Assembly: GCA_934271235.1 (NCBI GenBank)
Contig: CAKQQT010000005.1
Location: forward strand, 62,001 to 126,000
Length of the DNA stretch: 64,000 nt
Direction: 5' to 3'
Source: an uncultured Clostridia bacterium
GTDB lineage: Bacteria > Bacillota > Clostridia > Peptostreptococcales > Anaerovoracaceae
Shown in pieces: positions 6,216-62,517 of the stretch. Under the pieces are notes generated by a model. It had not been told where the DNA came from and ran no database searches. It saw only the letters and a list, made by a program, of their open reading frames with translations. The translations under genes were made by a program, and so were the position numbers. Numbering within the stretch: position 1 is the first letter of the stretch; each line of letters starts with the position of its first letter.

Positions 6216-6492
6216 ATTGAATCCTTTCCTCATTGGTTCTTTACAGAAAAAAATCCCTAAACCAATGATCACATTGATTTAGGGACGATTATACATAAAC
6301 CGCGGTACCACCCTAATTGCGAGCCTCAAACAAGGCCGCCTCTCTTTAGTGTGTCAGACTCCGGAGTGATATTCGCACAGGACACGCCCCGCAACTCTCT
6401 CAGCTCCTGCCGCAAACGGCATTCAGAATCGCTCTCTGTAAGGTTTGTCGTCCGGCTACTGGTTCCTTCACCGTCTGAAAATATTTGATTAC
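6216..6492 (-). promoter_or_regulatory. T-box leader of ileS (tRNA-Ile-sensing riboswitch)
   Basis: Contains the T-box core AGGGTGGTACCGCGG (6300-6315) and then a terminator hairpin CCCTAAATCAATG/CATTGGTTTAGGG with a T run (about 6246-6288). A candidate specifier triplet ATC (Ile) lies at 6368-6370 within GAATATCACTCC. Uncharged tRNA-Ile would favour the antiterminator and raise ileS expression. Confidence 0.93.
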
Positions 6493-6498
6493 CACACT

Positions 6499-6527
6499 AT
6501 TGTACTTGCCTTGTCCGCAAAAGTCAA
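6499..6527 (-). promoter_or_regulatory. promoter of the ileS T-box transcript
   Basis: Minus strand TTGACT, 17-bp spacer, TACAAT; start of transcription expected near 6492. Confidence 0.8.
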
Positions 6528-6534
6528 GAGGTTT

Positions 6535-6909
6535 TTATGCTTCCCACAGTCCGTGCAGATTGCAGTATGCGTAAACGGCTTCTACGGCGTCGCCTTCTGC
6601 CAGCGCGAAGCAGACTTCCGGCTTTTCGCCCGGTTTCAGGTGCTTGAGCTGTGTACCGTTCTGTGTTGTCAGGCTGATCCATTCGATGAAGTGTTCCGCC
6701 AGCATCGGGTGCTCGACGCTGCCGACTGCGACTTTCACCAGACCGTTCTCCACGCTGTAAACCGGAACGTGCTTTTCAACCGACGCGTCCACAGTGCCCG
6801 GCACCAGTTCCTGCATGGCTTCTCCGCAGCATACAACCGGCACGCCCTTGTCTTCGATCTTTTCGATGATGTTTCCGCAATGTGCGCATTTATAAAATTT
6901 CTGTTTCAT
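6535..6909 (-). CDS. dfx: desulfoferrodoxin (superoxide reductase)
   Basis: Cytoplasmic enzyme reducing superoxide to peroxide in anaerobes, 124 residues. The N-terminal desulforedoxin-type domain has its four Cys as CAHCG (8-12) and VCCGEAM (26-32), so this is a 2Fe form. The C-terminal catalytic domain supplies the His4Cys site: EKHVPV (His), VEHPM (His), EHFIEW (His) and CNLHGLW (Cys and His). It is the last gene of perR-rbr-dfx, 54 bp after rbr, and is presumably expressed with them from the PerR-boxed promoter. Confidence 0.94.
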   Translation of the reverse strand: MKQKFYKCAHCGNIIEKIEDKGVPVVCCGEAMQELVPGTVDASVEKHVPVYSVENGLVKVAVGSVEHPMLAEHFIEWISLTTQNGTQLKHLKPGEKPEVCFALAEGDAVEAVYAYCNLHGLWEA

Positions 6910-8021: not shown

Positions 8022-10166
8022 TTACCGAAGCAGCTTTTTCTGCACTGCAAAGAATAGATCCAGCTTCCGCGGCTTGTCCGCGAACTGTATCGTGATCTGC
8101 TGCTCCGTGATCTCCAGGATGACGCCCTCTCCGAACTTAAAGTGTGTCACAAGACTGCCTACGTCAAACTGTTGACAGAATTGTCTGCAAAGTTCCGCGC
8201 GCTGCGCGGCGTCTGCCTGCGGATGGCTGCTTTCCGGTTTTCGCTTCAGCGCGTCCGTTCTCTGCTTCTTTGCCGTCTTGCCGAAAATCTCCTCACAGAA
8301 GGTAGATTTCCGATCTGTGGTGAACAGATGGAGCTGCTCTTTGGCGCGCGTCATGCCGACATAGAAAAGGCGGCGTTCTTCCTCATAGGTCTCCAGTTCC
8401 TGCCGTGACGCTGTTTTCAGACCGGCCGGCACACGCTCCGGCAGGATCCCGTCGATGACATCCAGCAGGTACACGGTATCGTATTCCAGCCCTTTGCTGG
8501 CGTGGATCGTGGAAAGCAGGATCGCGTGTTCCTCATACGGCGTTCCCTCGCTGATCCGCTGCTTTAAGTAATCCAGACGGTCAAGGAACTCCGCGGGCGT
8601 CGCTTCGCGGCTGCCGAGGATCCGCAGGATCTCCAGTTTGCTTTCTCCTTTGATCCCGCTGCGGGTGAGATAGTCCCGATAGCCCAGATATTCCGTCACG
8701 CGGTACAAGGCTTTGTCGGCTCGCTCCGTCAGCATATTGCGCAAATGCGTACGGACAGACTTGGTGCTTGCGGCGGCATGCGCGTTCAGTTCCCCATATT
8801 CCAATGCCGCGTCCAGAACCGGGATGTCGCGCGCAGCGCTGATCTCGGCGATGCGCCGCGCTTCTGCCTTTTTGATATAAGTTCCGATCTTATAATATAC
8901 CTGCAAAAAGGCCTCTGTATCATAAGGGTTGACCGCGAGTTTGAAGATCTGCACGATATCCAGTACCGTCCGATGACTAAAAAAAGTCATGTCCATCTGC
9001 CGCATCCGGTAAGGCGTCCCGTTCCGCTCCAGAAGATCCACCAGCGGCAAGGCACATTCGTTGTCACGATACAGCGCTGCCGTCCGCTGCGGCTCCGATG
9101 CGCGGACACAGGTTCCCGCGACCTTGGCCAGATAGCGATACTGCGCGCCGCGGCTGCCGACCGCGATCTCTCGAATGGCGGAGCGCTCCGCGCGGGCGGC
9201 TTTCATGGTCTTCGGATGACGAAAGACATTCTTTTGGATAAAACGGTCCGCTGCGTTGACGATATCCGCCGTTGAGCGAAAATTTTCTTCCATCAGCAGC
9301 ACCTCCGCGCCCGGATGCTGCTCTTCAAACTGCAGCAGCGCCTGCGGATAGGCCGCGCGAAAGCCGTAAATGCTCTGATCCTCGTCGCCGACCAGGAACA
9401 GATTTTCTGTTCGCGACGCCAAAAGCGCAAGGATGGCATGCTGGATCTTGGAAGTATCTTGAGCTTCATCGACGCAGAGATACGGATACTGCCGCTGAAA
9501 ATAGGCTAAAAGCTCCGGAAACTTGCGCAGCATCTGATACGCGTATACCATCTGATCGTCATAATCCATCTGCCGCCGCTCCCGCAGAACTTGACTGTAC
9601 CGTTGATAGATCTGCGTAAGGTGCAGCGGATCTTCGAGTTCTTGTTCCATCTGCTTGATCTCATCCGCCGTCAGCATACTGTTTTTGATATAGGCGATCA
9701 GCGTGCGCACGGTCTGCAGATCGTTTTCGGTCGGATACGCATGTTCCGTCTCCTGATAGATGGCGGAAAGCAGCGCCGCGGTTTGTTTTTCATCCTGCAG
9801 CAGTTCGAAAGGCTTTCGGCCGATACGTTTGCCGTAATACTGTATGATCTTGGCGCAGATCCCGTTGATCGTCCGGAATTCAAAACGCTGCGCAAGTTCT
9901 TCGCCGAAGTACGCGGCACAGCGATCCGCCATGTCTTTCGTCGCGGCAACGGTATAGGTCACCGTGAGCACCTTCTCCGGCTCGATGCCGCAGCAGAGCG
10001 CCATATACCCAAGACGCGTCACTAGGACCGTCGTTTTGCCGGATCCCGGCACTGCCAGCAGCAGCACCGGTCCCTTGACTTTTTGTACAGCTCTTTTTTG
10101 CTGCTCGTTCAGTTTTTTCGCGTATTTTTGTTCAAATTCATTCCAGTTCATGTTTTCTTTCTTCAT
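8022..10166 (-). CDS. UvrD/PcrA-like superfamily 1 DNA helicase
   Basis: A 714-residue ATP-dependent 3'-5' helicase. Q motif LNEQQKRAV (19-27), Walker A VPGSGKTT (39-46), DEAQDTS Walker B, motif III GDEDQSIYGFRAA, motif V STIHASKGLEYD and motif VI VGMTRAKEQLH are all intact. The C-terminal 40 residues (FKFGEGVILEI...) resemble the Tudor-like tail of PcrA that contacts RNA polymerase. It is shorter than a typical PcrA, and a genome may hold a second paralogue, so no symbol is given. Alternative start MNWNEF lies 5 codons in. Confidence 0.92.
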   Translation of the reverse strand: MKKENMNWNEFEQKYAKKLNEQQKRAVQKVKGPVLLLAVPGSGKTTVLVTRLGYMALCCGIEPEKVLTVTYTVAATKDMADRCAAYFGEELAQRFEFRTINGICAKIIQYYGKRIGRKPFELLQDEKQTAALLSAIYQETEHAYPTENDLQTVRTLIAYIKNSMLTADEIKQMEQELEDPLHLTQIYQRYSQVLRERRQMDYDDQMVYAYQMLRKFPELLAYFQRQYPYLCVDEAQDTSKIQHAILALLASRTENLFLVGDEDQSIYGFRAAYPQALLQFEEQHPGAEVLLMEENFRSTADIVNAADRFIQKNVFRHPKTMKAARAERSAIREIAVGSRGAQYRYLAKVAGTCVRASEPQRTAALYRDNECALPLVDLLERNGTPYRMRQMDMTFFSHRTVLDIVQIFKLAVNPYDTEAFLQVYYKIGTYIKKAEARRIAEISAARDIPVLDAALEYGELNAHAAASTKSVRTHLRNMLTERADKALYRVTEYLGYRDYLTRSGIKGESKLEILRILGSREATPAEFLDRLDYLKQRISEGTPYEEHAILLSTIHASKGLEYDTVYLLDVIDGILPERVPAGLKTASRQELETYEEERRLFYVGMTRAKEQLHLFTTDRKSTFCEEIFGKTAKKQRTDALKRKPESSHPQADAAQRAELCRQFCQQFDVGSLVTHFKFGEGVILEITEQQITIQFADKPRKLDLFFAVQKKLLR

Positions 10167-48640: not shown

Positions 48641-48680
48641 TTTCCAGTTTTTCAAAAGCGTAACAACAAAAAATTCTACT

Positions 48681-49376
48681 CATACCCCACGTTATAAAAT
48701 TACACTACTCTCAAACTATGCAATATCTTTGTTACTAACAGACACAGTTCGACAACCATATGAAATTACACTACTCTCAAACTGGGAACAGTTACATCAA
48801 GAAGGTAACTGTGTTCGACAACCATATGAAATTACACTACTCTCAAACACCGCAACAATGCTTTTAATGCACAGCAGGGTTCGACAACCATATGAAATTA
48901 CACTACTCTCAAACCTATGCACTTCATACATCCTTGGAAGTCTTGTTCGACAACCATATGAAATTACACTACTCTCAAACGCTTCTCACTATATAGCAGC
49001 AATATCCGTTGTTCGACAACCATATGAAATTACACTACTCTCAAACAGAAGCGCGGCGTGGATCCGGCGCTGGTGAGTTCGACAACCATATGAAATTACA
49101 CTACTCTCAAACTTGAATACAATTATTTAAATTACAATGCAGGTTCGACAACCATATGAAATTACACTACTCTCAAACTGTATCTCGATTCCGTATTTTT
49201 CAGCAGTCGTTCGACAACCATATGAAATTACACTACTCTCAAACCATGCTGATGGCATAATTTGACGAAAGGAGGTTCGACAACCATATGAAATTACACT
49301 ACTCTCAAACATCCGTATGCACCCGGCGCTTCAACTAATAGTTCGACAACCATATGAAATTACACTACTCTCAAAC
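48681..49376 (-). CRISPR. type II-A CRISPR array, 11 repeats of 36 bp, 10 spacers of 30 bp
   Basis: Ten identical repeats start at 48747, 48813, 48879, 48945, 49011, 49077, 49143, 49209, 49275 and 49341. Each begins GTTCGACAACCATATGAAAT on the plus strand. An eleventh copy, degenerate in its first half (48681-48716), marks the trailer. All spacers are exactly 30 bp. Transcription is on the minus strand, as shown by the tracrRNA anti-repeat and the trailer position, so the leader is at the csn2 side. No spacer match elsewhere in the window was noticed. Confidence 0.98.
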
Positions 49377-49407
49377 CTCAATTTTCGAATAAACGCCACT
49401 ACACGCC

Positions 49408-49421
49408 GTAATTTCATATGG
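49408..49421 (+). repeat. 14-bp inverted copy of the repeat core in the CRISPR leader
   Basis: GTAATTTCATATGG on the plus strand is the reverse complement of CCATATGAAATTAC inside every repeat. It lies between the first repeat (ends 49376) and the csn2 stop (49429). In a minus-strand transcript it forms an anti-repeat able to pair with the first repeat. Confidence 0.75.
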
Positions 49422-49428
49422 GCACACG

Positions 49429-50100
49429 TTAGTGTATCTCACATAAATCAATATCAATTATATACTCATTGCTGCTATGATTCAATCGAATCTGCTGATC
49501 GCAAATAAAAAGTATATACAAATCATAGTAACTGGCACACGTCTCAATATATGCATAGTCATTCATGGTCAAATAAGCATTACAGTTTACAAAGAGAAAT
49601 ACATTTTTACTCAATAATTTTTGCATATTTGTCATATACTCTATGGACCTTTCCGCAAAGCTGCCTTTCGGATCGTGCATGCGTACCGAGTAGTTTTTCA
49701 GGACAGCAGAGAACACAAAATCTTCTTCAAACTCCAGTTGATAATCTGACTGATGGTTCAGTACATTTAAGGTTTCTAACAACTTTCCGTTAATCTCTGC
49801 AAAAGAGCTTAGCAGATCCTGACTCTCCGCGACACTCTGTAAAGATAAGAAAAGTTTTTTCTGTATTTCCCGTTTTTCATAAGTTAAGTCAAAAGGTGTG
49901 AAGATAACATCTGCATAACGTATTAGATCGTATCTGTCTTCGTTATCATACAAGGAAATTTCATCACTTTTTTTCTCAAGAACTTCTTTTAGCATAAGTG
50001 TCACTTGTTCGAAGATTCTGGAAGACTCCAACGCAAGCACATTCGCTTTTCCTTTTTTTAATTCCATGGACAGAGAAATTTTAGGGCAGATCAGTTTCAT
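49429..50100 (-). CDS. csn2: Csn2, type II-A adaptation protein
   Basis: 223 residues, a ring-forming tetrameric dsDNA-end binder acting with Cas1-Cas2 and Cas9 in spacer acquisition. [37 protein letters not shown] and [18 protein letters not shown] match the Csn2 core. The length is close to the 220 of S. pyogenes. Its ATG overlaps the cas2 stop (ATGA). Presence of csn2 defines subtype II-A. Confidence 0.92.
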
Positions 50101-50417
50101 AGCACTACAAGCCTTTCATCCGTATCTATGATATCATTTTTTGATGATCCGATCACAAATTCCATACGTGCATATTGCTTTTCCGTTATCACAAGAAGCT
50201 GTACCAAGCCAGAATTCGGTTTATTCATTTTGACTGCCTGTACGATCGCATCTGCGACCGTTGTGTTTAAGGCAAGCTTGCAGTACACGCTCTCCTGCAT
50301 CATCAGGAATCCCTTTTGGATCAAAAATTTTCGAAATTTGCGATATTGCCGCTTATTTTCTCCGGTTTCCGTCGGCAGATCAAAAAAGACAATGACTCTC
50401 ATATACCTATAATTCAT
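50097..50417 (-). CDS. cas2: Cas2, type II
   Basis: 106 residues: [33 protein letters not shown] with the ferredoxin-fold Asp after VIVFF. The N-terminus matches the MSYRYMR opening of type II-A homologues. Overlaps cas1 by 11 nt. Confidence 0.96.
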
Positions 50418-51285
50418 TTCTATAAAACTTTATTAAAGAAACGTCTCTTTCATTCAAAGCATCAAATAAACTTCGGCAGTAAATCTTGATCGCATTGCTG
50501 ACAAAATTGTTTTTACCGTCAATGATAACACTCTCACCTAAGAATTGCAGTACCTGCATTTTTTCATCGTGTTCAAAACAGACAGGGTTCATTGCTTTTA
50601 CCGTCCGGTCGATCAAAATGCGAAAAGGTTCCATAAAATCTGATGCAAGATTGAACGGATTGAACATATTATCATGAAATAATCCGAGCTGCGTGATATA
50701 TCCGTTTGCTGCGATCTCACGATTAAAACAGGAAAGCAAGATCCCATACCCGTAATTCAGCGCTGCGTTAATTGAATTTTCTGCGCTTCTGGTAAATTCC
50801 ATACCGAATAACGCATTAAAATATACTTTCGCCGCATGCCCTTCCCGGTTTGTCACATCTCCGGGTTCTATCTCCCGGATGTATTGAGCAAGCAGATCTG
50901 CCTGCTCAATACATCCGCTGTCTCTTAGAAATTCTGATTGCTTTCTTATCTTTTCAGCAACGATTTCTGTCCAGATGAGTTCTTTTTCTGTCTGTTTCCA
51001 AGATATCTGCTTTTTAACTTTTAAGCTCGTATCATGACTCCCATAATACGGCAATAGTTCAGAGTGCGGATTATGCTGTTCATCACAGAAAATGATCTTT
51101 ACTTTTTTCTTGGTTAGTTCACATAGGAGTGCCGCAGTCAAAGATACTGCTGTAGATTCTACAATCAGCATTCCGATCTCGCTTAAATGCACCCGTCTGG
51201 TTTCATCCTGTTTGCGAACAACCAAGTAGTCCATTTTATAGTCCAGCTTCGCATAGCCTCGAACCACGATCGTACGCCAGCTCAT
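50407..51285 (-). CDS. cas1: Cas1, type II
   Basis: 292 residues; metal-dependent integrase. Active-site residues lie in TNREGHAAK (E148), [10 protein letters not shown] (H204) and ASDFMEPFR (E219). Begins one base after the cas9 stop codon. Confidence 0.97.
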
Positions 51286-51286
51286 G

Positions 51287-54200
51287 TTACAACTCGATCC
51301 GGTTTTCGAAAAGACCTGTAACGGATTGATTTATCAAAATCAACTTGCTTTTTCCTACTGTGTTTTTATTTACAGCCATATTTCCGGCATTTTTGCTCCC
51401 GCCTATACTGGTTAAATCACACTTTGTTTCAATGTCACAGCGTAACATGGTGATAATTTCGTTAACAAGTTTCATTTGTTCCATTGGACTCAAGCATATG
51501 AACTTTTCTCTTTTTTCTCCCAAAAATTTCCCTTGATTAGCCGGTCTTTTGCAATATGCGTTCAAAAGTTTTTCAGTTAGTTCATCATAAATGGATATTA
51601 AATCGTCTGAAGAAATTTTGTCGAACTTCTTACTTAAAGCATACCCTCTATTATTATCTAATTTTTTTTCAATGCGCCGAATCATTTCTTCTTTTGACTT
51701 CATCACCAATTGTTGATTATTTTTGAACTTTAAATTACTTGCATCAGCCGATCTTATCCGCATCGGATAGCCGTCAATTTCCAGCAATGCATTTTTTTTG
51801 ATGCAATCCCGAAGCACCTTCACATTTTTTAATTGTTTTACGTTTATGCAATATTCAAGATATGCATTGGGATCATGTTCTAACATATTCGCAACATAAA
51901 TCGGCACTTCCATAATATTGCGGACGCGCTCTCCTTTTTTCCCGTCGAATTCTATCAGTGCAAAATAAGAAGTATTCGCGCTGCTGTAGCCGCCGTATTT
52001 AGCGGTATCCAATCCTTTTTTCAGTGCGATCGGTGCTGCCTTTGTTTTGGGTGCGATGGTTTCATCAAACAGCTGCCCTTTTCCGCAATAAGTGTATTCG
52101 GTATATAAAATATCGTTTCTGCGCATCGTCCTACGTATTTTCTCTAAAGTTCCACCTGTTTTTTCACCTTTTTCATTACGTTTCTTTCCGTTATGATCAG
52201 GTGCTTCCCAGATTTTTTCTCCTTTGCGGTATACATCGTAATCGAAAACACGGCTAACATTATAGAATCGCTCTTTACCGGCTTTCTGCTGGTCTTTTAT
52301 CCATTGCATCGGATTCAATGTGAATTTCGTGCTGTATACATCCCCGGCAACAATGTTCAGATATGCGTCCTTGGCATGATGGTAGTCATTGACTCGTCTG
52401 GACTTCAACATGTTTAAATCGTCTTTTCTAAAATCTGAAACGATGCCTGCTTTTACCGGAATTACTTTGGTCCCCTCTCTTTCATAAAGTTGCTTCAAAA
52501 GCTCAACAACTGCTTTTGAGGATTGTCGTGTCTCCACAAGCTGACGGTTGATGAAACCGCCTAATTCTTCTGCGCTGAAGTCTTCCCGGCGCATCAAACG
52601 GTCATACTTCTTTTTCGAAATAAAGCCTTTTTCAAGGAGCATCGCCCACCATTCTCTTTGCTGCCGCTGAACCTGTGCGGAAATCAAGCCATCGCTTTTC
52701 TTTGCGTTGTATTCCTTGTTGACAAGGACCAAATTGTCGAGGCTGTCATCTTTCAGTTTTGACTGCGGATAAATGTGATCGCGATCCCACTTTGCGTTGC
52801 CTGCCATAAGCTGCTGAATATCGATCGGTTCTCCGGAATACATGCAGCGCCCCATTTGGGTGTAATACAAATACAGTTTCATACTGTTGAAGCTTCTTTC
52901 ATCGGTTTCATCGATTTCTTTGCACCAATCTCTCGTATCTGTTTTACATGCCGCATAAAGCTCCAGTAATTTTGTTTTTCTGGATACGGTACGCTTTTTT
53001 TCTTCCGCTCCGCGTGCCATCTCAACAAAGACTTTGTCCGGAGCGTGTCCCATCACGTCTTTGACCTCCTCTACGATTTCAATGCTCTGCCAGATCGCGC
53101 GTTTGGTAGCTGGGGAAACATACAGATCTTTCACCACAGAATCATAGGTAATGTCCGTGATGATCCCACGTTTTTCCGCATTTTTCTTTTCAATTTCTTC
53201 TTTGAAAGTAAACCTGCTGCTAAGAAGCTGCATCAGATTCCAATTGGTTTGCCACAGCGCTTCTATGATCGTAAAAACTTCTCCGGTTTCTTTGTCAGTT
53301 CCTGTGACTCCATTTAAAAACGCTTCCGAAAAATTACCCCATCCGTTGTAGCGGAAACTTTGGATTTTCTTTTGCTGTTCCTGCGTCAGTTCATCGGGGT
53401 AACAAGCTTGTATGACTTTTTGAGTCATTTTCCAGTCATCACCGTAAATAGTCTTCCATCGGATGATATCTTCGACCATTTTCTTGATCCGGTCTTCATG
53501 GATTCTGTTTCCAAAGACTTTCTTCTCAAAATCGAGATAAGCTGTGAGATTTGCCTTAAAATCTTGATCAAACCCACTCAGATCTTCTTTTTTTAGGCTT
53601 GGATCCTGCTGCTGCAAATACTCCAGCAGCTTTTTCCCTGTGACCCTACTTTTTGTTTCAAATAGATCCTGATAGATCTGCTGCTTCTGCGTAACCGTTA
53701 TCTCATGCCCTCTGATTTTTAAGTTGTTCAATTCATTCAGAACCATAAAACGGCTATATAGAAGCGACATTTTAGGAATCACATCTTCACCTATCAAATA
53801 AGTACATTTATTTGTCATATGTCGAATGAATCTTTCATTTGAGGCTTCTTCATCGATCTTTTCCGAAAAATTCCATGGGTAAATTCTTCCGTCTTCCTTT
53901 CTCTGCACCCAAACATTCGCGCCCTCGTTTTGATGGCGTGTGCTTAGCGGTCCTACATAATAAGGAATTCTAAAGTTAAAGATAGAAATGATTTTTTCTG
54001 CGGTACTTAGCCCCTGTTCATCTCTACCCGCAAGAAACGGTAAATAAATTGCGGCATTCGCAAGTATTCTTTGCAGTTCAGCTTCGTGAATCTGCTTTGG
54101 CACAGATCCGTTATTTTTACTTCTTTGGATCGGAAGCAAAGACTTGTTTTCAACTTCTGCGCACACGGCCTCATACGATACACGATCGTTCTCGTCCACA

Positions 54201-55426
54201 TCCATCTTATCAAGGATCTTTTTTAACTCTTTGTAAAAGTCTTCTTCACTGCATTTTTTCAGGTTTTTCTTCTTATTTCGAGTCTTCACGCTGCCGATAT
54301 AACTTGCGTAGTTTGCCTTTTTCGCTTCCGTGCCGTCAAAGAATGCTTTGTACTCGTTTATATTGCAATACCGCTTCATCAATTGTTTCAGCTTCTTTAG
54401 GTTCTGTTGATGCTTTTCATATTGTTTTACCTTTGCAAAAGACAGATATTCTTCAGAACCCAAGATATCAACCAGCACACCCCAGTCATAAACAGCTTTT
54501 ATACAGTCTAAAATATAACAGGTATCCGGCATCTGCGACTCAAGCTCCGGGTGGACGACTTCATCGTAAGCACTTTCTGCAAAGGAAAAAGAAGTTTTTT
54601 CAAATCCCGCAAAATCTTCTTCAAAAATTTTGCTTATGTCACCTTTATTTCCTACCACCAGCTTACAGAGCTGATCAAGCGCAGTTTTCCTGCGCTTTAT
54701 TTCGTCTTTATCTTCGCAGGCGGCATCATCAACGGTAAGCAGGCTTTTCATTTGTCTTGCTTTTTCACTTTTTGATATTTTTTTATTTTTCAAAATCTGT
54801 TCTATCGCGGTGCGATCTTTTTCAGCTAATAAAATTCCCAGCCCGTTTTCTTTATCTTCAATGGCCTCCAGAAGTCTTCCGAATACACTTTTAAAATTTT
54901 TCGCATCTCCCAAACTTCCGTCAATCAAAAAATGTCCTCTGTATTTCAAGATATGATGCAGTGCCAGGTATACAAGTCGGATGTCATGCGGTTCTTTGCT
55001 TTCGATCAGTTCTTTTCTCAGATGGTAAATTGTCGGATACTCTTTATAATAATCGACATCCGAATAGTCATTTGATACAAACAGCGTTCGCTTTTCTGTG
55101 ATTTCATTGCTTTTATCCTCAGGATGGAGCCTGCTCTCATTTAATCGGATAAAGAAAGTCGGATCAATTTTGAAAATTTCTTCTTTAAAAAGATCTTGCA
55201 GCAGATCGATACGCTGCACACGTCTTTGCAGTCTGCGTCTGTTCGCACGTTTCATTCTTCTTTCTGCTGCGGTGTTTGCAGACTCAAACAGACGGATGCC
55301 CCACATTGCTTTGCGATTAAAGCGGCATAAATCATAGCTGGGATTTGTTACTGCCCAACCGACAGAATTCGTTCCGATGTCCAATCCTATATAATAGGTT
55401 TGCACTTTTCTTGTAATATTTTTCAT
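51287..55426 (-). CDS. cas9: Cas9 nuclease, type II-A
   Basis: 1379 residues from the ATG at 55426 (AGAGAGGGG upstream); a longer frame to 55486 would run through the promoter region and the anti-repeat. RuvC-I is IGLDIGTNSVGWAV with D16. The Arg-rich bridge helix (ERRMKRANRRRLQRRVQR) is at about 55-72. RuvC-II KVFVEMARG has E802, HNH RDHIYPQSKL has H884, and RuvC-III YHHAKDAYLN has H1016/H1017/D1020. All catalytic residues are intact, so it should be an active double-strand nuclease. Confidence 0.98.
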   Translation of the reverse strand: MKNITRKVQTYYIGLDIGTNSVGWAVTNPSYDLCRFNRKAMWGIRLFESANTAAERRMKRANRRRLQRRVQRIDLLQDLFKEEIFKIDPTFFIRLNESRLHPEDKSNEITEKRTLFVSNDYSDVDYYKEYPTIYHLRKELIESKEPHDIRLVYLALHHILKYRGHFLIDGSLGDAKNFKSVFGRLLEAIEDKENGLGILLAEKDRTAIEQILKNKKISKSEKARQMKSLLTVDDAACEDKDEIKRRKTALDQLCKLVVGNKGDISKIFEEDFAGFEKTSFSFAESAYDEVVHPELESQMPDTCYILDCIKAVYDWGVLVDILGSEEYLSFAKVKQYEKHQQNLKKLKQLMKRYCNINEYKAFFDGTEAKKANYASYIGSVKTRNKKKNLKKCSEEDFYKELKKILDKMDVDENDRVSYEAVCAEVENKSLLPIQRSKNNGSVPKQIHEAELQRILANAAIYLPFLAGRDEQGLSTAEKIISIFNFRIPYYVGPLSTRHQNEGANVWVQRKEDGRIYPWNFSEKIDEEASNERFIRHMTNKCTYLIGEDVIPKMSLLYSRFMVLNELNNLKIRGHEITVTQKQQIYQDLFETKSRVTGKKLLEYLQQQDPSLKKEDLSGFDQDFKANLTAYLDFEKKVFGNRIHEDRIKKMVEDIIRWKTIYGDDWKMTQKVIQACYPDELTQEQQKKIQSFRYNGWGNFSEAFLNGVTGTDKETGEVFTIIEALWQTNWNLMQLLSSRFTFKEEIEKKNAEKRGIITDITYDSVVKDLYVSPATKRAIWQSIEIVEEVKDVMGHAPDKVFVEMARGAEEKKRTVSRKTKLLELYAACKTDTRDWCKEIDETDERSFNSMKLYLYYTQMGRCMYSGEPIDIQQLMAGNAKWDRDHIYPQSKLKDDSLDNLVLVNKEYNAKKSDGLISAQVQRQQREWWAMLLEKGFISKKKYDRLMRREDFSAEELGGFINRQLVETRQSSKAVVELLKQLYEREGTKVIPVKAGIVSDFRKDDLNMLKSRRVNDYHHAKDAYLNIVAGDVYSTKFTLNPMQWIKDQQKAGKERFYNVSRVFDYDVYRKGEKIWEAPDHNGKKRNEKGEKTGGTLEKIRRTMRRNDILYTEYTYCGKGQLFDETIAPKTKAAPIALKKGLDTAKYGGYSSANTSYFALIEFDGKKGERVRNIMEVPIYVANMLEHDPNAYLEYCINVKQLKNVKVLRDCIKKNALLEIDGYPMRIRSADASNLKFKNNQQLVMKSKEEMIRRIEKKLDNNRGYALSKKFDKISSDDLISIYDELTEKLLNAYCKRPANQGKFLGEKREKFICLSPMEQMKLVNEIITMLRCDIETKCDLTSIGGSKNAGNMAVNKNTVGKSKLILINQSVTGLFENRIEL

Positions 55427-55444
55427 TTTCCCCTCTCTTTTCGC

Positions 55445-55473
55445 TTGACACATAAACTTTAGTACGCTATACT
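55445..55473 (+). promoter_or_regulatory. tracrRNA promoter
   Basis: TTGACA-N17-TATACT on the plus strand, pointing away from cas9 and within the cas9 5' region. A candidate cas9 promoter on the other strand uses TTGTCA (in the anti-repeat) and TATAGC, so the two promoters overlap. Confidence 0.85.
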
Positions 55474-55479
55474 CTAAGT

Positions 55480-55594
55480 ATCTCAAATGACAACCATATG
55501 AGATTACACTACAGGTTCAAATAAAGAATTTTTCTAACCGCCCTTTAAGGGCCTCCACAAGGTGTGGATAACTCGCGAAAGCGAGTTTTTTATT
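55480..55594 (+). ncRNA. tracrRNA
   Basis: The anti-repeat (about 55488-55521) pairs with the repeat over a lower stem (TCAAA with TTTGA), a bulge AGGT opposite GA, and a 24-bp upper stem with one G-U pair; this is the layout of Cas9 guide duplexes. Downstream come a nexus-like region, then hairpins GCCC/GGGC (about 55540-55552), CCACA/TGTGG (about 55554-55566) and the terminator ACTCGCGAAAGCGAGT (55571-55586) with a T run. Confidence 0.95.
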
Positions 55595-55689
55595 TTCTTT
55601 TTGCTTCTTTCCGAACTTTTTCGGCATTCTCTATCTGTTTCTGTGGTTCCCTGTAGTTTCTTCATTATACACCTTTTTCCCGCTTCATG

Positions 55690-55718
55690 TTGACAAATAT
55701 TTGCAAAAGTCATAAAAT
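55690..55718 (+). promoter_or_regulatory. promoter of the WYL regulator gene
   Basis: TTGACA-N17-TAAAAT, 48 bp before the ATG; CGGAGG ribosome-binding site. Confidence 0.85.
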
Positions 55719-55765
55719 TAACAATATAAATATAATTTTTTTCTCTTTTTTTCGGAGGATCTTTT

Positions 55766-56782
55766 ATGGCAAACAAAAGCGGCGGAAGACAACGATTGCT
55801 CGCGGTTTATGAAATCCTTAGAGAATTCAGTGACACGGAAGTGAGCTTAACAAAATCTCAGATATGTGACCTCCTTGATGAACGCTACGGTCTGGAGGCT
55901 GATCAGCGAACGGTTCAAGATGATCTAGATTGCCTGCTGGAATCCGGATGCATCCGCTCAGATAAAAAGAATTGTTTTCATTTTACTGTACGTCCTTTTG
56001 AGGACTGGGAACTAAAAATGCTGGTCGATGGTATTGCGCAAACCGATTATTTTGAGCCGCGCACTTTAAATCATATTATTGAAAAAATCATCTCTCTTGC
56101 AGGTCCTACCGATGCCGAAATGCTGCGCAGGAATCGTCCTGCGCTCGACTATGCTGTAAAAGAAAATGATTTTTATCTTTCGGAGAATCTGCGCAGACTA
56201 ACTTCTGCAGTGAAAGAACTGCATCCGGTCCAATTTGAATATTTCAAATTAGACGAAAATAAACTTCCGGTTCTTCATGGCTGCGGAACCTATCTGGTAC
56301 ACCCATATATCATCGTAAAGCGCAATACCTTTTACTATCTCGTCAGCTACCGGGAGGGTGATTCTTCCTTGCGTTATTTCCGCATCGATCGTATGCGGAA
56401 CATCGTGATCCAAGAAGATCAAAAAAGGCTTTCTCCGTGTCATCTTCCGATTGGGGATAAAACTGACGAGATCAACCATTATTTACGCAACAATACCGAT
56501 AGCTTTTGGGGAGAAAAAATATCTGTCATCGTCCGGCTTGACGGCACACCAAGCATCCTCTATGATGTTTTTGGCATTGAAAATGTAAATCTTACTTCAG
56601 AAAAAGATCCGTCTGTTTTTTGCATCAATGCGCAGGAGAATGCCGGACTATATCATAATCTCATGAAACTCGGTCCATCGATCACTGTATTGGAGCCGGC
56701 CGCTGTCCGTGCGCAGTATCTCCACGAACTAAGAACGATGCTTTCAAAATATAATGAAGATCCGCTATCGCCGTATCTTTAG
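55766..56782 (+). CDS. WYL-domain transcriptional regulator between the two CRISPR systems
   Basis: 338 residues. N-terminal winged helix (about 8-75: SLTKSQICDLLDERYGLEADQRTVQDDLDCL). The central WYL domain has HPYIIVKRNTFYYLVSY and RYFRIDRMRNI with the basic ligand-binding residues; a WCX-like C-terminal extension follows. WYL proteins sense nucleic-acid or nucleotide ligands and often repress defence genes. It is convergent with cas7c. It is a candidate for binding the palindrome at the mini-RNA promoter (60684-60712). Confidence 0.9.
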   Translation: MANKSGGRQRLLAVYEILREFSDTEVSLTKSQICDLLDERYGLEADQRTVQDDLDCLLESGCIRSDKKNCFHFTVRPFEDWELKMLVDGIAQTDYFEPRTLNHIIEKIISLAGPTDAEMLRRNRPALDYAVKENDFYLSENLRRLTSAVKELHPVQFEYFKLDENKLPVLHGCGTYLVHPYIIVKRNTFYYLVSYREGDSSLRYFRIDRMRNIVIQEDQKRLSPCHLPIGDKTDEINHYLRNNTDSFWGEKISVIVRLDGTPSILYDVFGIENVNLTSEKDPSVFCINAQENAGLYHNLMKLGPSITVLEPAAVRAQYLHELRTMLSKYNEDPLSPYL

Positions 56783-56829
56783 AACGTAGCCAAATAATGT
56801 TTCCATTCCACTAAATTCTTTCAAGTATG

Positions 56830-56896
56830 CCTGGACCGAAAAAGGAAAATATCAAGGTGTACAATTTCTACTCACACGCCTCATGCGAGGCGCGAC
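56830..56896 (-). CRISPR. solitary type I-C repeat with one spacer-sized stretch in the 3' region of cas7c
   Basis: A 33-bp repeat (56864-56896, minus strand) begins GTCGCGCCTCGCATGAGGCG, has the 6-bp stem CGCCTC/GAGGCG and ends TGAGTAGAAAT. Its form (GTCGC start, central hairpin, ...AAAT end) is that of I-C repeats. It starts 32 bp after the cas7c stop with no terminator between, so the cas transcript should contain it. A 34-nt unique stretch follows (56830-56863), with no second repeat. Confidence 0.78.
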
Positions 56897-56928
56897 TTTT
56901 GATTTTTCCCTAGCTCTTGCCAGCTTAT

Positions 56929-57789
56929 TTACAGCTTTTCAATCAGTTCTACACCTTCCGGCATCTGACGATCAACTATGATCTCGTAATCGCTGAATGC
57001 ACGCGGCGGTTCGTCTTCATTCTTTGGTTTCACATCAATTTTGCCAAAAAGCAGATGCGACGGTGCGTTGCCTAAAACGCAATCGTGCTTAAAAACGTAG
57101 AGTTTGCGCATGCACATTTTGCCTCTTGCCGCACTGTGATCAATTTCAAACATGTTAATGATCGCCTCCCACAGCACATCTAAGTCCTCTTCCGAAAGCT
57201 GCGTTGTTTTCTGCGCCAATGCTGCGGAGACATAGCCCTCCGCACGATACAGTGCATAAGGGATAATGTACTTTCTTCCCATTTCGGTATTGCCGGTTTC
57301 CGTTCTTTCTTCGGTCGTACGGGCCTGTCGGGTAATGGTCACTTCATCTCTTGAGATCGGTGATATGCTGCGGGCAAAATTGATCTGTACCGGGCCTCTG
57401 ATAATACCGCATGGGTCGGTTCCCGTGGACATCACCGCACCGAATGTTCTGACGTCAAAGTAGTTTCTGCACATGTAAGCGCAAGCTTTCTTCACATCAT
57501 TCGCATTTTTGCCTTTTTGTCCTGTTTCAAGCCCCTGCGCTTCATAGGCCTCAGTAAATTTCGCGTTCAAAAAGCGGTCTGGCTTGATCAAGATATTATA
57601 GCCTGCCTCTCCTTCTTTCACAAGCTCTACGTAGTTTCGGATTTTCCGTTTCAGACAAACGTCTGTAATATACCCAAGGCCAGTTGCCGGGTCCATACGC
57701 GGTGCATTGCCTGCATCCGGGTCGCCGTTCGGATTTCCGTTCTCTACATCAAAAAGCATTAAGAAATCATATCGGTTCTGAATTGCCAT
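56929..57789 (-). CDS. cas7c: Cas7c (Csd2), type I-C Cascade backbone
   Basis: 286 residues. MAIQNRYDFLMLFDVENGNPNGDPDAGNAPR is the typical Cas7c start (FDVxNGNPNGDPD), with later GAVMSTGTDPCGIIRGPVQINFARSI. It coats the crRNA spacer in multiple copies. ATG at 57789 has GGGAGG upstream. Last gene of the three-gene cas operon. Confidence 0.96.
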   Translation of the reverse strand: MAIQNRYDFLMLFDVENGNPNGDPDAGNAPRMDPATGLGYITDVCLKRKIRNYVELVKEGEAGYNILIKPDRFLNAKFTEAYEAQGLETGQKGKNANDVKKACAYMCRNYFDVRTFGAVMSTGTDPCGIIRGPVQINFARSISPISRDEVTITRQARTTEERTETGNTEMGRKYIIPYALYRAEGYVSAALAQKTTQLSEEDLDVLWEAIINMFEIDHSAARGKMCMRKLYVFKHDCVLGNAPSHLLFGKIDVKPKNEDEPPRAFSDYEIIVDRQMPEGVELIEKL

Positions 57790-57802
57790 TCTATTTACCT
57801 CC

Positions 57803-58180
57803 CTATTTTTCTTCACGTTTCTTTTCTCGCGGCAGTCGTAATGTTTGCTGGTAGTAGCCTACGACAAACGCACCTTGCTCTTCCAAGGTCAACCTTTTCG
57901 GGAAATTTCCCTCTAGCTTATCCATAATTTCTGCTTGCAGCATCTTATACGGTTTATACATGCCCGGTTTTTTGACCCTGATTTTTCGCATATGAGCGCT
58001 CGACAATTTTTCTAAAGTCGGAAACGTCATCATTGGTTTCTCCATCGCCGAAGGATAATAGCTATCTTTTATCGTTCTGTTTAATTTTGTTTCGGCAGAG
58101 GTTGCCTGGATCCCCTCTAATACAGCAAACAACCTGCCGCATAAGTATCCGATGTCACAACAGTTTTTGTCTAATTTCAC
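57803..58180 (-). CDS. cas11c: Cas11c small subunit, internal start within cas8c
   Basis: In-frame GTG at 58180 (codon 497 of cas8c), preceded 8 nt upstream by a perfect AAGGAGG. The product is about 125 residues (MKLDKNCCDIGYLCGRLFAVLEGIQ...), the size and start region of the I-C small subunit made by internal translation in characterised systems. The Shine-Dalgarno inside the coding sequence is direct evidence. Confidence 0.82.
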   Translation of the reverse strand: MKLDKNCCDIGYLCGRLFAVLEGIQATSAETKLNRTIKDSYYPSAMEKPMMTFPTLEKLSSAHMRKIRVKKPGMYKPYKMLQAEIMDKLEGNFPKRLTLEEQGAFVVGYYQQTLRLPREKKREEK

Positions 58181-59668
58181 TTTCCATACCTCCTTTTTGT
58201 TTTCGTCCTCTTGATGTTTTGCCGTGCGTTCTTCCGCGTGATGCATCAAGTATGCTTTCGCCAGACCTGCGCGAGTCTTGGTCACGTACTTGTCGATTTT
58301 GACCTTTCGTATCACCGTTTCCAGCAATGATTTCGGATATGGATACCCGTAGATAATGGATCCCATAAGCTTACTGAACAATGCCGGATCCATTTTTTCT
58401 TCTCTGCTCCTCGGGACATATTTGGGCGTTTCACCTTCTGTGCTTTCTTTCAGGGACAGGCAGTGCATTTTGATACCGGAAAGCGGCACGACCCGCACCT
58501 CCTTCGACACCTGCAGTTCATCCTGAAACTTTGCTGCGTTCCACAGCATGTCCAAAAACTTTTGCCGATAGACAAATTTGATAGAAATTCTGGAAGTATT
58601 CGGTTTCAATCCGACGATATAGAAATCTATATTGCCGTCCAACTTTGCATCCAAGGTCCTTAATTCTTTACTTGTGACTTTTGTCTGCATGCCTCTCTCC
58701 AGCAGACTCTTTAAGATCGCATTCATCTTTGTTGCATCGGGCATGCCCGCCAGCAGTTCCTGCAGCAGCATTTCGTGCGCATCTCCGCCATCCATCGCCC
58801 AAAAAGCAACGGTAATATCATCCATGATCATGCGGTGCGACCGCTGTTTGAGAATGTAATTCAAAGCCTCCGTGTACTTATGCATCGCGAGTTCCGAAAT
58901 ATTGCTGTTGTAAGACTGGTCATTGCCATAGGAGTTTTCCGACGGATTATTGAACCCGATCAGAACTCCTCCGGTCGAAGCTCCACCTGCAACGCCTTTG
59001 ATCTTGCTGTGGATCCTTGCAATATCAGAAACTTCTCCTGTGATAGCGCACTGCGCCTGATACTCGCCGGGCTGGCTCTGACTCTGCACATATTCACGCT
59101 CCCATTTTGCTTTGATCTGCGGATCGTCTTGCAGCAGCAAGTCAGGATGTCCGGCAAGACAGAATGCAAAACCTGCGCTTGTATAGTCTTTCCCTAAGTC
59201 TAAAAGATGTCGGTTCTCCGTTTCACCCTCCGGTTTCCAGGATCGCAGGAAGTTGCGAAAGGCATCAATGATTGGACTGTTGAGCCCGTCAATGAATTCC
59301 AGATTTCGGTCCACAAAAGCCTGATGCGATTTTACAGCCTTTCCGGTTCTGTCCTGCGGATTCAGGCTCTCTTTCTCGCGATTCAGTCCAAAGATGTACA
59401 GCGGCCTGTGTTCGATCGTATTGCTCTCGATGCCTGATTTCTCTGTTCTCTTGGGAAAGCGCATGATCCTCTGGATTTGTTTTTCCTTCACATTTCCGTT
59501 CTTCTGCACCTGTTTCTCAATCTCCTGACAGGAAACGATTTTATCTACTTGTCCCTCCGGCGTCAGCACAATTTTATATTTGATCGACACTTCGGAATAG
59601 CCGTCCGGAACAACCAGTCCTTTTTCTGCCAGCACATCGTAGTAATCACATAAGGCTTTGATCAGCAT
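57803..59668 (-). CDS. cas8c: Cas8c (Csd1), type I-C Cascade large subunit
   Basis: 621 residues. Starts MLIKALCDYYDVLAEKGLVVP with AGAGAGG upstream (a longer frame is rejected). Internal landmarks are GFNNPSENSYGNDQSYNSN, ISELAMHKYTEALNYIL and VAFWAMDGGDA. It recognises the PAM and recruits Cas3 in standard systems. It overlaps the cas5c stop by 7 nt. The C-terminal quarter doubles as Cas11c. Confidence 0.95.
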   Translation of the reverse strand: MLIKALCDYYDVLAEKGLVVPDGYSEVSIKYKIVLTPEGQVDKIVSCQEIEKQVQKNGNVKEKQIQRIMRFPKRTEKSGIESNTIEHRPLYIFGLNREKESLNPQDRTGKAVKSHQAFVDRNLEFIDGLNSPIIDAFRNFLRSWKPEGETENRHLLDLGKDYTSAGFAFCLAGHPDLLLQDDPQIKAKWEREYVQSQSQPGEYQAQCAITGEVSDIARIHSKIKGVAGGASTGGVLIGFNNPSENSYGNDQSYNSNISELAMHKYTEALNYILKQRSHRMIMDDITVAFWAMDGGDAHEMLLQELLAGMPDATKMNAILKSLLERGMQTKVTSKELRTLDAKLDGNIDFYIVGLKPNTSRISIKFVYRQKFLDMLWNAAKFQDELQVSKEVRVVPLSGIKMHCLSLKESTEGETPKYVPRSREEKMDPALFSKLMGSIIYGYPYPKSLLETVIRKVKIDKYVTKTRAGLAKAYLMHHAEERTAKHQEDENKKEVWKVKLDKNCCDIGYLCGRLFAVLEGIQATSAETKLNRTIKDSYYPSAMEKPMMTFPTLEKLSSAHMRKIRVKKPGMYKPYKMLQAEIMDKLEGNFPKRLTLEEQGAFVVGYYQQTLRLPREKKREEK

Positions 59669-60390
59669 CGCAGTTCCTCTCTGTACTTTTTTACATCGAT
59701 CACACCGTTCACCATATGCGGATGATAGTACATGGTCGTTGCTCGATCTGAAAATTTTGGATCGTCCCAATCTCCGTTGATAGGAACACCCCTGTCCTCG
59801 AAACTGACCCGATAGCACATGTATCCGAGATCCACATCGCCCGATTCCAAGATCGTGCTGCTGATGTCCTTGTAGTTAAAGTTATCAACCAGTTCTATCT
59901 GCTCGACCGGAAATTCACTGCACCCAAAGCACGGCTGACGAAACCACTGTCCTTTTTCGATCCGGCGCTTGATGATGTTATAATGTTTTTTCTCTCCATC
60001 TGTTTCCTCTTCATTTTTTAACCCGGTCAGTTCAAAATGAAAGGCGATACCGTACTTGACATCTTTCAGTACCATAGCTGCCCGCTGACTGCGGCATTCC
60101 GACGTATAGATCTCCGGTTCTCCGCCATTGCCGTTCATACGGCTTTTCATCGCTGACAACAGCACTTTGTCTTTCACTTCATTACGCCGGATGTTTGCAA
60201 AATCGATTGGATTGAAAACCACGATCTCATCAATGACGTAGCGGATCGCCGGTTTCCAGTAGATGCTTTTCAGCATGCCTTCCAACGCACCCGGTGTCGG
60301 CACGTCATAGCTGACGCGTTCTACCTTGAACTCACTTCTCGTAAAGCAGGCGTAGTCCCCTTTTGCAAGAATTTTGAATCCGTAACTCAT
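59662..60390 (-). CDS. cas5c: Cas5c (Cas5d), type I-C pre-crRNA endonuclease
   Basis: 242 residues. MSYGFKILAKGDYACFTRSEFKVERVSYDVPTPGALEGMLKSIYWKPAI is the typical Cas5c start. In I-C systems Cas5c cuts at the base of the repeat hairpin, leaving an 11-nt handle. AAGGGAG precedes the ATG. No cas3 gene precedes it, unlike standard I-C operons. Confidence 0.95.
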   Translation of the reverse strand: MSYGFKILAKGDYACFTRSEFKVERVSYDVPTPGALEGMLKSIYWKPAIRYVIDEIVVFNPIDFANIRRNEVKDKVLLSAMKSRMNGNGGEPEIYTSECRSQRAAMVLKDVKYGIAFHFELTGLKNEEETDGEKKHYNIIKRRIEKGQWFRQPCFGCSEFPVEQIELVDNFNYKDISSTILESGDVDLGYMCYRVSFEDRGVPINGDWDDPKFSDRATTMYYHPHMVNGVIDVKKYREELRC

Positions 60391-60488
60391 ACAATCACTC
60401 CCTTCGTATCTTTTTTTCTATCTATAAAAAATAATCAGATTACTGCATGTTCTTTCACAAAATAATAAGTGTTACTTTATAAAAACTT

Positions 60489-60547
60489 ATTTCTTGATAT
60501 AGTGCAAATTTTATATTTATACTACTAAAAATAATACCTTTTGTCAA
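60489..60547 (-). promoter_or_regulatory. cas5-8-7 operon promoter with RNA-guide target site
   Basis: Promoter TTGACA-N17-TAGTAT (60519-60547), transcription start near 60512. At 60489-60504 the plus strand reads ATTTCTTGATATAGTG, identical to the first 16 nt of the guide in the mini-crRNA upstream. The three bases 5' of this protospacer are CTT, near the pyrimidine-rich I-C PAM (TTC is canonical). A bound Cascade would sit at about +8 to +24. Confidence 0.82.
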
Positions 60548-60561
60548 CGCCTCAAATTCCA

Positions 60562-60687
60562 GAAAACGCAAAATAAGACGAGTATACCAAAAAAGTACAC
60601 CCGTCTCATTTTTCTCACTATATCAAGAAATATTTCTACTCACGCGCCCCGCGCGACAGTCCCCCACGTTCTACCACGCTTCGGACA
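60562..60687 (-). ncRNA. CreR-like mini-crRNA: promoter, shortened I-C repeat, 16-nt self-matching guide, terminator
   Basis: Promoter TTGCAA-N17-TATAAT (60694-60722), transcription start near 60687. A 26-nt repeat (60632-60657) has the hairpin CGCGC-GGG-GCGCG and ends TGAGTAGAAAT, the same 11-nt handle as the full I-C repeat at 56864. The guide begins ATTTCTTGATATAGTG (60616-60631), identical to the cas promoter-proximal site; the following bases do not match. The RNA ends at a hairpin (60574-60607) with a T-rich tail. Confidence 0.85.
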
Positions 60688-60722
60688 AAGGTTATTATAG
60701 CAAACCTTTGTCACCCTTGCAA
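60684..60722 (-). promoter_or_regulatory. mini-crRNA promoter with a 10-bp palindromic operator over the -10 box
   Basis: GACAAAGGTT (60684-60693) and its exact complement AACCTTTGTC (60703-60712) bracket the -10 box (60694-60699). This is a typical site for a dimeric repressor; the nearest regulator gene is the WYL protein. It could also act as a 5' RNA hairpin only if transcription began upstream of the predicted start. Confidence 0.75.
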
Positions 60723-61140
60723 TGTATTTTTCCCGCATTGGATTTTTTCATTCACAGCTGAAAAAAACGCAACATTTCTCCGAAAATCCGCCTTTTTCCG
60801 GCGTTGATTCAGGGCTCATTGCGTTTTTGAATGTGCCCCGCGTAATTCTCCAATCAAATTCTAAAATTGGGGGGTTTACAAGCTTTTTTCAAGCAAAAAT
60901 TGGAGAATTTCCAAGGAGCTCTCAAATTCCGCAACACGACGCAGCAAGCTGCGGATCATTCACGGTATGCAGCCGGCTACGCGCGATGTGCAGCTCGGCA
61001 GGTCATATACGGCAGACGCTATGCCGCGGACCCATGCTGAGGCTCCCGCGCGCTCCGCCGCAAACGGCAAGAGCGGCCAGAGCGGCATCAGCAGCAAGAG
61101 CGGCAGGCGCATCAGCGGCCAGCAATATGGGCAGGTGCAA
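60723..61140. other. non-coding stretch between the mini-crRNA and the CoA-transferase
   Basis: No convincing gene. Holds a 10-bp inverted repeat AAAAACGCAA/TTGCGTTTTT (60763-60828) with an inner stem, a likely terminator. It also holds an 11-bp perfect inverted repeat AATTCTCCAAT/ATTGGAGAATT (60844-60854 and 60899-60909). 60960-61140 is GC-rich with AGC/GGC runs and may be a decayed coding sequence; a plus-strand frame starting at 60967 lacks a ribosome-binding site and runs antisense into the next gene. Confidence 0.55.
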
Positions 61141-62517
61141 TCAGTACATCCGTTTGCTGGTATTGGACCAGATGCCCATTTTTTCGGCTTCTCGGATCAT
61201 GTCGTCGCGGAAGTCCGGATGGGCGATGTTGATCAGCATCTCGGCGCGTTCCCAGGTGGACTTGCCTTTGAGGTTGGCCGCGCCGTATTCCGTGACGATG
61301 AAGCCGGTGCAGGAACGTGGGGTAGTCACCACGGAGCCCGGCGGCAGGATCGGCGTGATCAGGGATACTCGGCTGCCATCCTTGAGCGTTCTGGTGGACG
61401 GCAGGCACAAGAAGCTCTTGCCGCCGTTGGAACGGTAGGCGCCGATTACGAAGTCGAGCTGACCGCCGGTACCGCTGACCTGTTTATAGCCGGCGGTCTC
61501 CGCGCAGACCTGCCCGTAAATATCAACCGCGATACAGCTGTTGATGGAAACGAACTTGTTGATCTCCGCGATGTTCGTACAGTTGTTGACCCACTCGACC
61601 GGCGCGCAGCAGCAGGTCGGATTGTTGTTGATAAAATCATAGAGCCGCTTGCTGCCGGCCGCGAAGGAATAAACCGCTCTGCCATGGTTCATCGGCAGAT
61701 TGATCTTATTGACGATCTTGCCCGCCGCGTAAAGATCCAAGTACGCGTCCACGAACATTTCGGTATGAATGTTCAGTTCATTGATATCGGAATTCGCCAA
61801 TAAGGAGCCAACCGACGACGGCAGACCGCCGATACCGATTTGAATGGTGGAACCGCTTTCCAGATGCTGCACCACATGATTGGCGATCTCTTGATCCTCT
61901 GCCGACGGCGCTTTGATCTTTAACTCTGCCAGCGGCAGGTTCTCGCCCTCGACGATATAGTCTACATCTTTGATATTGATCTCGTTGCTGTAACCGTAAG
62001 CAAACGGCATGTTTTCATTGACCTCCACGACGATCTTGCGCGCGCCGCGAATGACACCCAGCATATCCGCGACCTGCGGTCCGAGGTTAAAATCCCCGTT
62101 GCTGTCCATCGGTCCGACCTGAAACATCGCGACATCGATATGATTGCCATTGTCATTCCAAAGATCCGGCAGTTCGCAGAACATCATCGGCATGTACCAG
62201 CAGTTGCCTTCGTCTGCCATGCGGCGATCGAAAGCGCTGAAATGCGCGGAAGTAAAGCGCACATGCTTCGGACCTTCCTCCCCCAGCGCCGCGGCCGCCC
62301 GATAGGTAGCCAGAGGTTCCTCGTGGATTCCCACCGTCGATAAAATCGTAACATCCCGCAGCTCAGACACGCGCATCGCGAGTGCCTTATCCATCGTATC
62401 GACAATACCCGCGCCGGTGCCGAAATGCACCCGGTATCCGTTGCGTACGACCTGTGCCGCCGTCTCCGCCGAAACCCGCTTGCTCTCATATTCCAATTTA
62501 TAATTATTTGACTGCAT
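61141..62517 (-). CDS. acetyl-CoA hydrolase/transferase family CoA-transferase
   Basis: 458 residues. LNIHTEMFVDAYLDLY carries the catalytic Glu (HTEM) of the 4-hydroxybutyrate/butyryl-CoA:acetate CoA-transferase group. GIGGLPSSVGSLL and the C-terminal VTTPRSCTGFIVTEYGAANLKGKS (CoA-binding) also fit. The exact acyl substrate is not predictable; a fermentative acid-producing role is likely. ATG at 62517 chosen for AAAGGAGACAAGG. Confidence 0.9.
   Translation of the reverse strand: MQSNNYKLEYESKRVSAETAAQVVRNGYRVHFGTGAGIVDTMDKALAMRVSELRDVTILSTVGIHEEPLATYRAAAALGEEGPKHVRFTSAHFSAFDRRMADEGNCWYMPMMFCELPDLWNDNGNHIDVAMFQVGPMDSNGDFNLGPQVADMLGVIRGARKIVVEVNENMPFAYGYSNEINIKDVDYIVEGENLPLAELKIKAPSAEDQEIANHVVQHLESGSTIQIGIGGLPSSVGSLLANSDINELNIHTEMFVDAYLDLYAAGKIVNKINLPMNHGRAVYSFAAGSKRLYDFINNNPTCCCAPVEWVNNCTNIAEINKFVSINSCIAVDIYGQVCAETAGYKQVSGTGGQLDFVIGAYRSNGGKSFLCLPSTRTLKDGSRVSLITPILPPGSVVTTPRSCTGFIVTEYGAANLKGKSTWERAEMLINIAHPDFRDDMIREAEKMGIWSNTSKRMY

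Follow-up and report, generated by a model that had tools for sequence, protein, structure and literature searches.

The minus-strand unit that lies upstream of cas5c in this window (the whole stretch of DNA analysed, 64,000 nucleotides) most likely specifies an RNA of the CreR type, through which a Cascade of Cas5c, Cas8c and Cas7c would repress its own operon. CreR is a crRNA-like RNA by which Cascade represses the operon that encodes it, and we recognize its signature here because six guides, all different from one another, each match a site ahead of their own cas genes beside CTT or CTC. As the unit stands before cas3 in five relatives, this I-C branch has probably inherited it as a regulator, which the window has kept although its operon no longer has cas3, cas4, cas1 and cas2.

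Predicted guide RNA unit and self-target

The unit, the promoter that it appears to address and the self-target are arranged as follows.

60694–60722, minus strand: predicted promoter of the guide RNA unit (−35 TTGCAA at 60722–60717, N17, −10 TATAAT at 60699–60694)
60657–60632, minus strand: ectopic, shortened type I-C repeat of 26 nt with a short hairpin, GTCGCGCGGGGCGCGTGAGTAGAAAT
60616–60631, minus strand: 16-nt guide ATTTCTTGATATAGTG, directly 3′ of the repeat
60570–60612, minus strand: terminator-like hairpin closing the unit (terminator scan)
60519–60547, minus strand: predicted promoter of the cas5c operon (TTGACA at 60547–60542, N17, TAGTAT at 60524–60519)
60489–60504, plus strand: self-target (protospacer), identical to the guide (sequence match)
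60486–60488, plus strand: CTT in the PAM position, beside the self-target

Promoter-like sequence, repeat, guide and terminator-like hairpin thus follow in succession on the minus strand from 60722 to 60570. The promoter of the unit scores 10/12 in a consensus scan, with a TG preceding its −10 element, and the interval 60380–60900 holds five promoter-like sites against a shuffle mean of 2.2. The RNA fold has a z score of −5.44 relative to shuffles, and a search of 54000–62000 against Rfam returned no match at the gathering score. The 12-nt 3′ end of the short repeat, GTGAGTAGAAAT, is shared by the full 33-nt repeat at 56896–56864 and by I-C arrays in several relatives; when one mismatch is allowed, it occurs at only two places in the 64-kb window, namely these two repeats, and by simple arithmetic the chance expectation for such a 12-nt handle is about 0.00006 per 500 nt, both strands counted.

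Counting the last T of the handle, the inverted match between guide and site is perfect over 17 nt (60488–60504 and 60616–60632), the one shared T lying at a boundary where T is the last letter of both handle and PAM, and guide positions 17 and 18 are mismatched. The original prediction had described a minus-strand unit with the promoter TTGCAA-N17-TATAAT, a 26-nt repeat, a guide and a terminator, had given this repeat the same handle as the full I-C repeat at 56864, and had let the match of the 16-nt guide to 60489–60504 end at the repeat boundary (bar one T) and after position 16; every one of these elements is present in the sequence. If transcription starts 7 nt past TTGACA-N17-TAGTAT, the self-target begins about 8 nt downstream of the cas5c transcription start, and a 34-nt footprint from 60489 would extend to 60522, i.e. 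into the cas5c −10 element.

Distribution of units among relatives

Relatives of Cas5c were taken from a protein scan of species genomes (loci L001–L006) and from whole-genome Cas5c searches (1493 genome look-ups, repeats included), in which most groups were sampled rather than covered completely; L037 and L038 duplicate L004 and L003, respectively. The unit count covers 19 long-Cas5c operons, the window included, in which 500 nt or more precede the first cas gene. Left out are L067 and L075, whose contigs end inside cas3, and L074, where cas3 is interrupted by a run of N; in L074 the interval 4965–6674 holds only the end of cas3, after the N run and an ORF that resembles an integrase by eye. 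Handles in L042 and L043 were searched for as the exact 9-mer GAGTAGAAA without mismatches and then by the looser guide–site scan described below.

Six of the 19 operons carry a unit (window, L005, L024, L043, L068 and L069), in each case with its repeat outside the array and beside the cas operon; the repeat of the L043 unit is hardly degenerate. The remaining 13 have none, including L001, the sister of the window on the Cas5c tree of the fetched loci, so the unit is not required. The carriers do not form one clade, since each of the sister pairs window/L001, L024/L023 and L069/L071 has one member with a unit and one without on that tree. A search of the 13 unit-free relatives for other handle ends gave nothing except a hairpin palindrome in L006, and no unit outside the arrays was seen in nine I-C operons that are more distant, of which one has just 327 nt upstream. 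In all five unit-bearing relatives cas3 adjoins cas5 and the unit precedes cas3 (the L043 contig ends in cas5).

Covariation of guide and site

Within 16 positions the guide matches its own site at 16 in the window, 14 in L005 and 15 in each of L024, L043, L068 and L069, and the PAM position is occupied by CTT in five loci and by CTC in L069. The matches of the guides to their own sites sum to 90/96; only one of the 720 pairings of guides with sites is this good, the next reaching 83 and the mean being 50. The guides differ at 131 position pairs, and both sites follow in 114. Covariation of guide and target in related genomes had been named as a check of the CreR-like reading, and the two do vary together in the six loci.

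When the 500 nt upstream of cas5c were shuffled with dinucleotides preserved, a 16/16 match arose in 0/1000 cases for the window, and in the relatives the observed match was reached by 3 shuffles per 1000 for L005, 1 for L043 and 0 for L024, L068 and L069. When the flank was also required (CTT for the window, L005, L024 and L043; CTT or CTC for L068 and L069), the count was 0/1000 in each of the six. A scan of 24 entries without a PAM rule (GAAA[TC], an exact 8-nt seed and 14/18 positions) returned three matches, each of them a handle unit beside CTT, and missed L005, which has 7/8 seed positions. A looser scan of 30 entries from 28 genomes (AA[AG][TC] end, at most one seed mismatch, 14/16 positions, and CTT, CTC, TTC or TTT as flank) returned seven, the six units and the palindrome in L006. 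As controls, 343 guides were taken from the sequences that follow handles; nearly all of them are array spacers, and two genomes contribute twice. A single control guide reaches 13/16 in its own cas upstream region, with ACT as flank.

The positions of the mismatches were also compared. Among positions 1–16 they fall at 8 and 12 in L005, at 12 in L024, L068 and L069, and at 15 in L043, the window having none. Four of the six are at position 6 or 12 (all four at 12), for which P is 0.002–0.003 if positions are equal and loci independent, a value that is approximate because the loci are related. According to PMC5904413, Cascade flips out every sixth position. Position 18 is mismatched in five of the six loci, and matching fails soon after position 16–19 in five, whereas in L043 it continues to 20/22 positions; as L043 keeps this match despite having cas3, the match is not always seed-only. 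For interference by the E. coli I-E system a requirement of more than 18 bp is given in PMC5904413, and purely by analogy most of the pairs would fit binding without cutting, with L043 closest to that limit. The same source describes promoter occlusion in E. coli I-E as greatly weakened by six PAM-distal mismatches.

Phage matches of array spacers suggest CTT and CTC as plausible PAMs of the long-Cas5c branch, on thin data from two spacers: one spacer of the L024 array lies beside CTC in two phage records and another beside CTT. A third L024 spacer, mismatched at its position 2, has CAC and CGC flanks in the two records opened. The L023 array matched a single phage record, at 20 places and itself array-like, and no phage matches were found for the L036 array. 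Three faecal ‘Bacteriophage sp.’ records that match I-C arrays or Cas5c (MT836150.1, MT838203.1 and MT836695.1) are perhaps bacterial contigs.

Site geometry and proposed mechanism

The geometry of the site varies among the six loci. In the window it is placed downstream of the −10 element of cas5c. In L024 and L043 it stands just upstream of TTGACG/A-N17-TATNNT with the PAM facing the promoter, and in L069 and L068 it is upstream of the −35 element, with the PAM towards it, beside TTGTAA-N17-TAAAAT and TTGAAA-N17-TAACAT, respectively (each 9/12). L068 has a better promoter-like site (10/12, 4253–4281) nearer cas3 and away from the site of the guide. The L005 site is in direct orientation, beside a promoter-like TTGACA-N17-TATNNT sequence. 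In the five relatives the predicted promoter by the site ends about 50–175 nt before cas3. Cascade bound at these sites could hinder the predicted promoters, not necessarily in one way. The terminator scan places a hairpin on the strand of the unit in three of the six (window, L005 and L043) and on the opposite strand in L024; in L068 and L069, as judged by eye, inverted repeats with longer loops precede T runs.

We propose that the unit would be transcribed from TTGCAA-N17-TATAAT and that Cas5c would trim the transcript at the hairpin base, giving an RNA that begins with the 11-nt handle TGAGTAGAAAT; the handle and Cas11c of the I-C Cascade are subjects of PMC7684278. The trimmed RNA would load into Cascade, which would then open the site in an R-loop of some 16 bp, immediately past the −10 element of cas5c, and, once bound, block initiation or early elongation of the cas5c operon. 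Release would come when Cascade falls, or when other crRNAs or an anti-CRISPR occupy it.

A type I-C operon without cas3

Four further features of the window make up the remainder of the locus.

59662–60390, minus strand: cas5c, pre-crRNA endonuclease and Cascade subunit, 242 aa
57803–59668, minus strand: cas8c, 621 aa, the C-terminal part resembling solved Cas11c chains
56929–57789, minus strand: cas7c, 286 aa
56864–56896, minus strand: lone full-length I-C repeat of 33 nt, 32 nt past cas7c

The type I-C effector set Cas5c, Cas8c and Cas7c is present in the usual gene order, and solved I-C complexes contain chains that match Cas5c and Cas8c. Searches by tblastn with Cas3, Cas4 and Cas1 of the Mogibacterium I-C system gave no match at 1e-4 within the 64-kb window, the operon has no room for cas2, and an I-C array is absent from the window. 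The original prediction of a system with no cleavage module stands for the 64 kb searched, where tblastn finds no Cas3, and its reach is that of the window. Genes of CRISPR-associated transposons (tns/tniQ) are not among the 17 proteins scanned with Pfam between 26.5 and 64 kb.

The relatives have cas3, together with cas4 and cas1 where the contig reaches. Across 21 other long-Cas5c loci fetched, a cas3 match lies beside cas5 in 20 and cas3 is interrupted in L074, so the cas3-less layout was not seen again. Since such units occur in relatives with cas3, the simplest reading is that the unit arose before the cas3-less state. It had further been suggested that, in a system without a cleavage module, the unit may be a dedicated regulator; this part receives no support from the unit itself, since the other five units precede cas3 and the unit by itself is then no proof of such a role.

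Elsewhere, Cas5c relatives were found in 10 plasmid records (all below 60% identity) and one phage-collection record (40%), and none were found in viral contigs. In L068 about 1 kb (9009–10063) separates the matches to cas8 and cas7, which is longer than in the relatives compared alongside. The window also contains a separate type II-A system at 48678–55520, with Cas9, Cas1 and Csn2 (all three by profile), a Cas2-sized ORF at 50097–50417, an array of ten perfect 36-nt repeats and, at 55485–55520 upstream of cas9, an anti-repeat that is probably part of a tracrRNA. A WYL-domain regulator (55766–56782, plus strand) lies between this locus and the I-C operon and could control either. The aspartyl-tRNA synthetase of the window shows 83–84% identity to two genomes in the family of Mogibacterium kristiansenii and is about equally close to proteins named Anaerovoracaceae, so the host probably belongs to that family.

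Alternative explanations

The fate of the unit after the loss of cas3 can be read in two other ways. It is possible, if rather doubtful, that a working CreR of a complete I-C ancestor was passively left behind in an operon that has been decaying since cas3, cas4, cas1, cas2 and the array were lost. The gene content of the relatives, with cas3 and, contig permitting, cas4 and cas1, would suit such a history, as would the single full repeat that remains behind cas7c; in the nearest genus a Cas8c match is found in just one of five genomes, at 30% identity (L055, G801:C76), and among the Cas8c sequences the root-to-tip distance is greatest for the window (1.56, followed by L001 with 1.41). Decay sits poorly with cas5c, cas8c and cas7c, which are all open and full length in the window, and with the 16-position match of the window, the sole perfect one among the six. 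Relaxed selection shows no clear sign in Cas5c or Cas7c, neither of which is accelerated, and Cas8c is ambiguous. We consider it unlikely that Cascade has been repurposed, without nuclease and array, as a self-limiting RNA-guided transcription factor, whose dose CreR would set and which the guide of the lone repeat would address to other genes. Retention of the Cascade genes, their promoter and the CreR unit while nuclease and adaptation genes are absent from the window would be expected from it, and the lone repeat, a second ectopic guide unit if it is not the final repeat left from a deleted array, could supply the address; the 19–21 nt tested on either side of this repeat have no exact match in viral contigs. 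Within the window, however, the best target for a lone-repeat guide matches at 11/16 without a CTT or CTC flank, and there is no seed target flanked by CTT or CTC; units precede cas3 in relatives as well, and no second cas3-less layout came from the 21 other long-Cas5c loci.

Three further readings concern the nature of the unit itself. CreA antitoxins likewise have degenerate repeats and partial promoter matches, as described in PMC9458426, so the unit might be a CreA whose targeted promoter drives a small toxin RNA and not cas. We hold this to be highly improbable: the predicted promoter in the window ends 129 nt before the cas5c start, the scan placing no terminator in this interval, and the promoters by the sites, ending about 50–175 nt from cas5c or cas3, leave little room for a toxin gene. 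An anti-CRISPR RNA of the Racr kind, left by a mobile element, would also present a solitary I-C repeat behind a promoter, and RacrIC1 is an example reported in PMC10651486. In six of six units, though, a guide with a PAM-flanked site follows the repeat, the neighbouring genes are chromosomal, and the 28-nt stretch of handle and guide is absent from the viral contigs searched; we give this origin next to no credence. Scarcely more credible is a chance or purely structural inverted repeat, such as an attenuator or a protein operator. The two copies in the window are indeed inverted and could form a long hairpin, but those in L005 are in direct orientation, and in all six loci the match starts at the handle boundary, one shared T aside, beside CTT or CTC, and guide and site covary.

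Under the preferred reading, autorepression by a CreR-type RNA, the window is a case in which effector genes and autorepressor are retained in an operon without cas3, and this combination poses directly the question of whether Cascade was kept for regulation.

Comparison with known systems

CreRs mediate autorepression in types I-B, I-E and V-A according to PMC13131331, are placed in type I and V-A by PMC12737573 and are described in brief in PMC12948488. A type I-C CreR is not among the literature matches listed, in which CreR in this sense appears in reviews only.

The locus resembles type I-C systems (cas3-5-8-7-4-1-2) in the usual order of cas5c, cas8c and cas7c, and differs from them in that the window is without I-C cas3, cas4, cas1 or array and the operon without room for cas2. 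With Racr RNAs such as RacrIC1 the unit has in common a solitary type I-C repeat behind a promoter, but it has a guide with a self-target and is chromosomal rather than phage-borne. CreTA shares the degenerate ectopic repeat, the partial guide match at a promoter and Cascade as repressor; here, no toxin gene is seen and the targeted promoter precedes cas. The scaRNA that acts with Cas9 in Francisella is similar in its degenerate repeat and in a pairing of about 15 bp for repression, as given in PMC9458426, whereas its effector is of class 2 and its target another. The unit is set apart from the known CreRs by belonging to type I-C, by its single repeat, by an operon without cas3 and by a role that is predicted, and it shares with them a crRNA-like unit outside the array, a degenerate repeat and a partial match to the cognate cas promoter.
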